Assembly: GCF_003947435.1 (NCBI RefSeq)
Contig: NZ_RCOS01000062.1
Span: forward strand, 1-64,000
Direction: 5' to 3'
Length of the DNA stretch: 64,000 nt
From: Candidatus Methanodesulfokora washburnensis
GTDB taxonomy: Archaea; Korarchaeota; Korarchaeia; Korarchaeales; Korarchaeaceae
Shown here piece by piece: positions 3,473-5,447 of the stretch; within the stretch, counting starts at the first letter, position 1, and every line of letters begins with the position of its first letter. Below the pieces are notes generated by a model. That model did no database searches, was not told the origin of the DNA, and saw only the letters and a list, made by a program, of their open reading frames with translations. The translations under genes and the position numbers were made by a program.

Positions 3473-3997
3473 ATGAGAAGCCATGAGGAACACAGAAAGG
3501 AGGCAAGCTCCCCTCTAAAGTTCTCCATATTGACTGTCAGCACTTCTAAATATGAGAACAGAGAACAGAGAGATATAACAGGGGATTTAGCCGAGGAGCT
3601 TCTTAGAAGATCAGGTAATGAAATTGTGGAGAGGGACATATGCCCTGATAATCCGGATATGATAAGGGAGGCAGTTATGAGAATGGTGAGAAAATCCGAT
3701 GTAGTTATTGTCTGCGGAGGAACAGGAATACACCCACAGGATCTCACAATTGAGGCTATAAAACCAGTTTTTGAGAGAGAAATAACTGGATTCGGTGAGA
3801 TCTTCAGGTTTCTAAGTTATAGTGAGGTGGGTCCTGCTGCTATGCTTAGCAGGGCCACTGCAGGTGTGATAAATGGGACAGTTGTGTATCTTTTGCCAGG
3901 ATCCCCTGATGCCGTGAGGCTGGCCCTTGAGAGGATAATAATACCAGAGTCCGCTCATGCAGTTTGGGTCGCTAGAGGATATAGCAAGAAAAGATAA
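3473..3997 (+). CDS. moaB: MoaB/Mog-family molybdenum cofactor protein
   Basis: The 174-residue protein matches the MoaB/Mog fold, which adenylylates molybdopterin on the way to molybdenum or tungsten cofactor. Visible signatures are LTVSTSKYENR near the N-terminus, then SDVVIVCGGTGIHPQDLT with the GGTG phosphate loop. They are followed by GFGEIFRFLSY, GPAAMLSRA and the closing LLPGSPDAV motif. The length is normal. It stands alone between the divergent prenyl synthase and the dnaG region. The partial gene at the window start may belong to the same pathway. Confidence 0.92.
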   Translation: MRSHEEHRKEASSPLKFSILTVSTSKYENREQRDITGDLAEELLRRSGNEIVERDICPDNPDMIREAVMRMVRKSDVVIVCGGTGIHPQDLTIEAIKPVFEREITGFGEIFRFLSYSEVGPAAMLSRATAGVINGTVVYLLPGSPDAVRLALERIIIPESAHAVWVARGYSKKR

Positions 3998-4057
3998 TTA
4001 TTATATATTTTGTTAAGTATTTATAGATTAAATCATTTTATGGAGTGCCCCAGTAGG

Positions 4058-4068
4058 AATTATATATC
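4058..4068 (+). promoter_or_regulatory. TATA box for the dnaG leader RNA
   Basis: A TTATATAT stretch at about 4060-4067 lies 22-28 bases before the first base of helix P1 (4088). This is the normal spacing from an archaeal TATA box to the transcription start. It implies that transcription begins at or within a base or two of the structured RNA. Inferred from sequence only. Confidence 0.55.
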
Positions 4069-4086
4069 CGAGCTTGGATATTCGAT

Positions 4087-4169
4087 GGCGCCTACCCACG
4101 ATTGACCCCGGGGTAGGGAGGAAGGCGTGGGCCGACCTTTGACCTCAGGGGATTGTCGGTAGGCGCACA
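4087..4169 (+). ncRNA. Structured RNA: perfect three-way junction upstream of dnaG
   Basis: Three helices close with no unpaired base at the junction. P1 pairs 4088-4094 (GCGCCTA) with 4160-4166 (TAGGCGC). P2 pairs 4095-4100 (CCCACG) with 4126-4131 (CGTGGG). P3 pairs 4132-4136 (CCGAC) with 4155-4159 (GTCGG). All 18 pairs are Watson-Crick. The segment is far more GC-rich than its flanks, as expected for a structured RNA in a hyperthermophile. ACA follows P1 directly at 4167-4169, recalling box H/ACA RNAs, but the branched fold is not the usual H/ACA hairpin. It is either a separate small RNA or a 5' leader of dnaG, whose ATG is 24 bases past P1. I do not recognise a known family. Confidence 0.65.
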
Positions 4170-4190
4170 AATCTATAAGAGGTGCTTAAA

Positions 4191-5447
4191 ATGGGAGAGG
4201 TGGAGGAGCAGAGGCAGAAATTGTTGCCTCACAAATATGTAGCTAGGCTTCACATAACGATAAATGGTGTTGTTGATCCAAGTGATGTTATAGGGGCAAT
4301 TTTTGGCCAGCTGGAGGGCCTTTTAGGCCCAGAATTGGAGCTTAAGGAGCTCCAGAGAACCGGAAAGGTCGGAAGGATATACGTGAAGCTGAAGAAAGTC
4401 GATGAGAAATCAGAGGGCATCATAATGTTTCCCTCAGGGCTTGATAGAGTGAGCACCGCTCTTTTGGTGGCTGCCATGGAGACAATAGATAAGGTAGGCC
4501 CGTATCCGGCAACAGTTACTTTGAAGGAGATAGTGGATGAGCGAGAGGAGAGGAGGAAGGAGATTGCGAAGAGAGCAGCGGAAATACTGAAGTCATGGAC
4601 TGCATCATCTAGAGATTACCAGAGGAAGATACTTGATATGATAAGAACTGAGGCCGCAAAGGCAAGTTTGGTGCTCTATGGAAAAGAGGGACTGCCAGCA
4701 GCAAAGGGCGTGGAGGAGGCAGAGGAGATAATAGTCGTGGAGGGAAGAGCTGACGTTCTTAACATGATAAGATATGGCTACAGCAATGTCATAGCTGTAG
4801 GAGGAGCTGTTGAGAGGATACCTGACTCCCTAGTAGATCTCATAAGGAGGAAATATGCCACAGCTTTTGTGGATGGTGATAGAGGAGGGGAGCTTGTTCT
4901 TAGGTCTCTTCTTGAGCAAACAGATATAGATTTCGTTGCTAGGGCTCCAAACGGAAAAGGTGTAGAGGAATTAACAGCAAAGGAGATAAAAGCCGCCCTT
5001 TCATCTGCTGTGCCTGCTGATGAAGTAGCAAAGGAGCTCGGTATAAGGAGGGAGAGAAGGAAAGAGGTTGAGAAAAAGCTTGTCGAGGTACAAGCAGAAA
5101 GTATAACAGAGATTCAAGAAGAACCACAGGTAAAAGCTTCAGAGATCCAGATACAGAAGCTAAACGGGATACCTGAGCCCTTAAGGGGGATATTCCAGGA
5201 GATAGCTGGGAAGGAAAAGGCAGTGCTCCTTGGAGAGAACTTCGACAGAATAGCAGAGATTCCCATATCTGAACTATATAACAGTATAGGAAATATAAAG
5301 GATGTGAAACACATAGTTTATGACGGCATAGTCACGCAGAGGATAATTGATAAGGCCTATCAATCAGGTGTTAGAACAATTGTAGGAGCTAAGATCCACG
5401 AGGTCATCAAGATACCAGCAGGTTTGAGAGTGATAACGCTGGAGTAA
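4191..5447 (+). CDS. dnaG: Archaeal DnaG-type primase, TOPRIM domain, exosome-associated
   Basis: The protein is archaeal DnaG. In Sulfolobus it is a stable part of the RNA exosome and also has reported primase activity. The TOPRIM domain sits at about residues 178-255, with the catalytic glutamate in VVEGRADVL and the acidic pair in FVDGDRGG. The sequence APNGKGVEEL follows, then a charged linker and a conserved C-terminal domain. I place the start at ATG 4191, six bases after GAGGTG; a GTG at 4182 is in frame but lies in that site. Pelota follows after four bases, so the two are probably co-transcribed. Confidence 0.95.
   Translation: MGEVEEQRQKLLPHKYVARLHITINGVVDPSDVIGAIFGQLEGLLGPELELKELQRTGKVGRIYVKLKKVDEKSEGIIMFPSGLDRVSTALLVAAMETIDKVGPYPATVTLKEIVDEREERRKEIAKRAAEILKSWTASSRDYQRKILDMIRTEAAKASLVLYGKEGLPAAKGVEEAEEIIVVEGRADVLNMIRYGYSNVIAVGGAVERIPDSLVDLIRRKYATAFVDGDRGGELVLRSLLEQTDIDFVARAPNGKGVEELTAKEIKAALSSAVPADEVAKELGIRRERRKEVEKKLVEVQAESITEIQEEPQVKASEIQIQKLNGIPEPLRGIFQEIAGKEKAVLLGENFDRIAEIPISELYNSIGNIKDVKHIVYDGIVTQRIIDKAYQSGVRTIVGAKIHEVIKIPAGLRVITLE

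Follow-up and report, generated by a model that had tools for sequence, protein, structure and literature searches.

The window, the whole 64,000-nucleotide stretch of DNA analysed here, contains a short G+C-rich segment between a MogA-like gene and dnaG, which encodes archaeal DnaG, a Toprim-domain protein and exosome subunit (Table 1). dnaG is followed by a gene of the eRF1 family whose domains identify it as aPelota. The segment at 4087–4169 (GGCGCCTACCCACGATTGACCCCGGGGTAGGGAGGAAGGCGTGGGCCGACCTTTGACCTCAGGGGATTGTCGGTAGGCGCACA) has a GC content of 65%, against 18–45% in its flanks, in agreement with the rise reported in a preliminary description of this DNA. The longest dnaG frame opens at GTG 4182; judging by the spacing of the Shine–Dalgarno-like sequence, however, ATG 4191 is the likely start codon, about 20 nt beyond the ACA box. 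The source genome (G000) measures 2.94 Mb with 5.5% contamination, most relatives measuring 1.0–1.9 Mb, and its assembly may be a mixture of organisms.

Table 1. Positions of the genes, promoter and RNA elements at the dnaG locus (window coordinates).
Feature	Sequence	Position	Strand	Remarks
MogA-like gene		3473–3997		5′ neighbour of the RNA segment
TATA box	ATTATATA	4061–4068	+	Preceded by AGTAGGA (BRE-like)
P1 lower stem, 5′ arm	GCGCCTACC	4088–4096	+	9 bp with 4158–4166
Internal loop (pseudouridylation-pocket-like), 5′ strand	CACGATTGA	4097–4105	+	
P2 upper stem, 5′ arm	CCCCGGGG	4106–4113	+	Pairs with 4143–4151
Predicted kink-turn 1, non-bulged strand	UA	4114–4115	+	
Predicted shared C-stem, 5′ strand	GG	4116–4117	+	Pairs with CC 4136–4137
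Predicted kink-turn 2, bulged strand	GAG + GA	4118–4122	+	Opposite strand GA 4134–4135
Apical hairpin P3	GGC-GUGG-GCC	4124–4133	+	AGC-GUGG-GCU in genus g4
Predicted kink-turn 2, non-bulged strand	GA	4134–4135	+	
Predicted C-stem, 3′ strand, with kink-turn 1 bulge and GA	CC + UUU + GA	4136–4142	+	CC 4136–4137, UUU 4138–4140, GA 4141–4142
P2 upper stem, 3′ arm	CCTCAGGGG	4143–4151	+	Covariation
Internal loop, 3′ strand	ATTGTC	4152–4157	+	AYTAGT in most homologues
P1 lower stem, 3′ arm	GGTAGGCGC	4158–4166	+	Covariation
ACA box	ACA	4167–4169	+	Immediately 3′ of P1
Shine–Dalgarno-like sequence	GAGGTG	4179–4184	+	From sequence; also present in homologues
dnaG (archaeal DnaG, Toprim domain, exosome subunit)		4191–5447	+	Pfam Toprim_4, E 9.6e-07

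The segment 4087–4171 folds with a z-score of −5.5 relative to dinucleotide shuffles, and its fold is one long hairpin of ~82 nt (4088–4169), as supported by compensatory changes. The structure scored on a covariation alignment of 24 distinct sequences (A3) comprised P1 (9 bp), P2 (9 bp), the C-stem (2 bp) and the apical hairpin (3 bp). In this alignment, 96.1% of cells are paired and 16 of the 23 pairs have changed on both sides. Double-change cells numbered 56, as opposed to 13.6 in shuffles, and none of 500 shuffles scored equally high; when the structure was slid along the alignment as a control, paired cells dropped to 37–50%. Double changes occur in 7 of the 9 pairs of the lower stem P1, where 98.6% of cells are paired, and likewise in 7 of the 9 pairs of the upper stem P2. 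Between the two stems, the conserved part of the 5′ strand of the internal loop, [A/T]TGA, adjoins P2. The ACA that directly follows P1 in the window, as the preliminary description had seen, is present in 25 of 26 sequences (two of which are copies of one locus), the remaining one, from G003, having TCA. It is retained while the adjoining P1 varies in sequence and covaries.

The same segment had initially been drawn as a three-way junction of the helices GCGCCTA/TAGGCGC, CCCACG/CGTGGG and CCGAC/GTCGG. All three are present in the window as written, and the complementarity of the third persists in relatives (96–99% of cells paired). The first is genuine, except that it spans 9 bp rather than 7 and encloses an internal loop and a single upper stem; it is the helix shared with the hairpin, and it contributed every double change scored for the junction across the 17 sequences on which that fold was tested. 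By contrast, the second helix is paired in just 62–63% of cells in those relatives, with no double changes, and the third, paired in 98.8% of cells there, has changed on one side only. The compensatory changes that the preliminary description had called for are those of the long hairpin, its lower stem included, and not those of the other two helices. When enforced, the junction reaches −38.0 kcal/mol compared with −50.3 kcal/mol for the hairpin, making it 12 kcal/mol weaker, and at 37 as well as 80 °C the ensemble probability of its helices is 0.00 in each of the 26 homologous sequences. Covariation and energy together refute the junction as the ground state, and it is almost inconceivable that the RNA functions in this fold or adopts it as an alternative. 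The third helix corresponds to an apical CYGAY that is complementary to the 3′ pocket strand in 96% of cells (window positions 4132–4136 and 4155–4159); its persistence may simply reflect the conservation of both stretches.

A tRNA-like pairing had also been remarked upon, but neither ARAGORN nor Rfam finds a tRNA there, and a tRNA or tRNA-like identity was rejected. The statement that the RNA belongs to no recognised family was borne out, since positions 4000–4250 matched none of 4227 Rfam families, even at E 10. A possible likeness between GGGAGGAAAG and a conserved element of RNase P was set aside, the RNA being too short and having no Rfam match.

Above P2, sequence and covariation favour two opposed kink-turns with a common 2-bp C-stem, in which GA-RR-GAG-GA lies opposite GA-YY-NNN-GA. 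This arrangement is preferred because the pair formed by columns 38 and 57 of the C-stem goes from GC to AU in nine sequences (GC 11, AU 9, GU 4). An alternative C-stem pairing GAGG with YC was rejected, as it displays one-sided changes only, compared with nine double changes for the chosen C-stem. In predicted kink-turn 1, the TGA is invariant or nearly so and the three-base bulge is variable; the non-bulged strand is GA in genera g2, g3 and g5 and AA in G001. Different genera have U, G or A at its 2n position, and natural kink-turns tolerate change at 2n within the range G, U or A (PMC3985660). The predicted element resembles the non-standard kink-turns of the Kt-23 type in this respect; however, Kt-23 is ribosomal and single, whereas the korarchaeal RNA would carry two kink-turns on one C-stem. 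The GAGGA of predicted kink-turn 2 is near-invariant across all homologues, and the first pair of the apical P3 is A–U in 17 and G–C in 6 sequences of alignment A3. The apex (GAGGANRGCGUGGGCYGA) and the loop residues AUGA and AYUAG are conserved above the level of the stems.

A 108-base query matched 17 genomes of the same family, in each case upstream of dnaG. A wider search with a covariance model across the phylum's 29 genomes detected the RNA in 25, as a single copy in each; a second match in G016 corresponds to the same hairpin read on the other strand. The RNA occurs in every genome of family f1 but one, which is 72% complete, and outside this family in G024 (another family of the same order) and G025 (another family of the same class). 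The model found no homologue in families f4 and f5. The search upstream of dnaG proposed in the preliminary description thus succeeded in all 25 RNA-bearing genomes, where dnaG is the same-strand downstream gene. Its start codon usually lies 0–46 nt past the model-matched stretch, and ~160 nt past it in genus g2. aPelota comes next after dnaG wherever the locus sequence extended far enough and a match emerged, and the gene upstream of the RNA differs among genomes (polyprenyl synthetase, MogA-like or other). The element is a real and conserved small RNA, and every one of the 25 Korarchaeota genomes that have it carries it in the dnaG 5′ leader.

The proposal that the RNA has its own promoter agrees with the comparative data. 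The centre of the TATA box lies 26 nt before the start of P1 in the window, and this spacing is kept at 23–29 nt in 22 of 24 homologues; transcription should therefore begin at P1. Between the RNA and dnaG, the window shows neither a terminator nor another convincing promoter. From the position of the TATA box relative to P1, the gap of ~20 nt containing a Shine–Dalgarno sequence and the lack of a terminator, the dnaG transcript most likely begins with this RNA. Some genomes have A+T-rich stretches downstream of the RNA that score about as highly as the TATA box and may constitute a second dnaG promoter, above all in genus g2, which has the longest gap. In genus g4 (for example L033), GGCAAGTGTCGTAT between the TATA box and P1 is nearly identical among members, beyond what a promoter spacer needs.

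Archaeal box H/ACA RNAs have a lower stem of 7–9 bp, a distance of 14–16 nt from the pocket-closing pair to the ACA, and 8–11 bp from the pocket to the kink-turn, with 10 in productive guides (PMC4652768). Korarchaeum is among the archaea that bear cbf5 (PMC2738675). In the korarchaeal RNA, the covarying lower stem measures 9 bp in the window and 9–10 bp in most homologues, and P2 is separated from the ACA by 15 nt in the window and 16 nt in most homologues. The predicted kink-turn sits 8–9 layers above the pocket, which is within the range of 8–11 and under the strict value of 10.

The hairpin covariance model, built only from these RNAs, was run on 394 archaeal genomes and matched two loci only beyond the phylum. 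One of these (L156 1467–1593 in G256; E 1.3e-4) is independently identified by Rfam as HgcE/Pab105, a known H/ACA RNA, at 88.5 bits. The other (L155 1501–1591 in G141, from another archaeal phylum; E 1.8e-6) is an H/ACA-shaped hairpin with the same predicted double kink-turn (GA-GA-GUC-GA ... GA-UC-AAU-GA), a similar 3′ pocket strand, UUAGU, and an ACA after P1. It has no Rfam match and, unlike its korarchaeal counterparts, is located away from dnaG; inspection by eye places it close to an enolase-like frame on the opposite strand.

The H/ACA-like identity raised in the preliminary description is accordingly supported by the ACA, the spacing, the fold and the cross-detection of HgcE, and the RNA very probably belongs to the box H/ACA structural class. 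It shares with the archaeal box H/ACA sRNAs (Pab/Pf/Afu; Rfam HgcE RF00060, HgcF, HgcG and Pab21) a 9-bp lower stem with the ACA directly 3′, a pocket 15–16 nt from the ACA and an upper stem ending in a kink-turn. It differs from them in its predicted second, opposed kink-turn, its conserved apex, its fixed place in the dnaG leader, an upper stem of 8–9 rather than 10 layers, the absence of an Rfam match and the lack of an rRNA or tRNA target in the scans described below.

The scan of stable RNAs covered 16S, 23S and tRNAs. For the guides of G000, G001 and G009, the best complementarity to 16S and 23S rRNA was no better than that of shuffled guides, whose 95th percentile was ~23. Nothing consistent was found among ~45 tRNAs from G009 and most of those from G000 and G001, nor within the dnaG locus itself, and strict target patterns run on whole genomes gave no match common to all genomes with the same guide. 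Such a scan can detect a good match, because the pocket of L156 (HgcE) scored 31, compared with ~23, in a strong bipartite match to korarchaeal 16S rRNA around U15; this is not put forward as a proven target. The 23S rRNA of G009 (L152) is 3548 bases long compared with ~3050 in G000 and G001, which suggests an insertion or intron of ~500 bases. As the scans returned no consistent target, the RNA is classed as an orphan.

With moderate confidence, we regard the element as an orphan H/ACA-type RNA that is co-transcribed with dnaG and would give rise to a processed RNP RNA acting in trans. This reading is based on the single-copy homologues fixed before dnaG in 25 of 29 genomes, the covariation, the retained ACA, the spacings within published ranges, the cross-detection of HgcE and L155, and the fixed TATA box. 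The TATA promoter would drive a transcript that starts at the lower stem and carries the RNA as its 5′ leader, ahead of dnaG. Known archaeal H/ACA RNPs suggest that the PUA domain of Cbf5 would be anchored by the ACA and that L7Ae would bind the kink-turn, thereby protecting the hairpin. The hairpin would then be cut from the dnaG mRNA, or retained on it, and would direct pseudouridylation of a target outside ordinary rRNA and tRNA sequence. Against a guide function stand the negative target scans, the 8–9 layers as opposed to 10 in productive guides, and an apex more conserved than a guide needs.

A possible but unlikely alternative is that the element is a cis-acting leader, in which kink-turns in the dnaG 5′ UTR bind L7Ae, a whole H/ACA RNP or the gene product and control translation or stability, the H/ACA shape being a borrowed protein platform and not a trans guide. 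Such a leader had been among the early proposals, and the TATA spacing and the constant place before dnaG support it: all 25 genomes keep the RNA and dnaG together despite differing upstream genes, and any transcript begun at the sole convincing promoter has to include the RNA, with Shine–Dalgarno sites following. Linkage within one class could, however, also reflect plain inheritance of the operon. Sequence and covariation place a kink-turn within a protein-coding gene's 5′ UTR, as expected of an L7Ae-regulated leader, and kink-turns are the means by which archaeal L7Ae represses mRNAs, its own among them (PMC5539422). The l7ae mRNA leader of Sulfolobus similarly combines a kink-turn in the 5′ UTR with a TATA promoter and a Shine–Dalgarno sequence (PMC5539422), but there the kink-turn overlaps the Shine–Dalgarno sequence and is accompanied by neither ACA nor pocket, whereas the korarchaeal hairpin lies upstream of the Shine–Dalgarno sequence without overlap, with ~10–45 nt between its end and the start codon, or ~160 nt in genus g2. 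The negative scans for a trans target favour a cis role, for which, conversely, neither the ACA nor the pocket spacing would be needed. It is quite unlikely that the H/ACA-type element with its double kink-turn serves throughout Korarchaeia as a regulatory leader of dnaG, through which L7Ae and Cbf5 would control the exosome, or through which the mRNA would be pseudouridylated in cis.

The same negative scans, together with the conservation of the apex and of the loop residues AUGA and AYUAG, could also point to a different structured RNA, namely a ligand- or protein-binding leader that resembles an H/ACA RNA through a chance ACA. This is very unlikely, as the ACA persists in nearly every sequence beside a covarying P1, the spacing fits H/ACA RNAs and the model cross-detects HgcE. 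As for the favoured orphan H/ACA-type RNA, its trans-guide role and a cis-leader role could both hold together.

The family is ready for Rfam, with coverage of the Korarchaeota, and the predicted double kink-turn on a 2-bp C-stem presents a concrete target for structure determination. Whether H/ACA RNPs act beyond rRNA in archaea is an open question in the literature (PMC7991803); if the korarchaeal RNA is a guide, it would be one for a target that is neither rRNA nor tRNA. If it is a leader, it would tie RNA modification to RNA decay.
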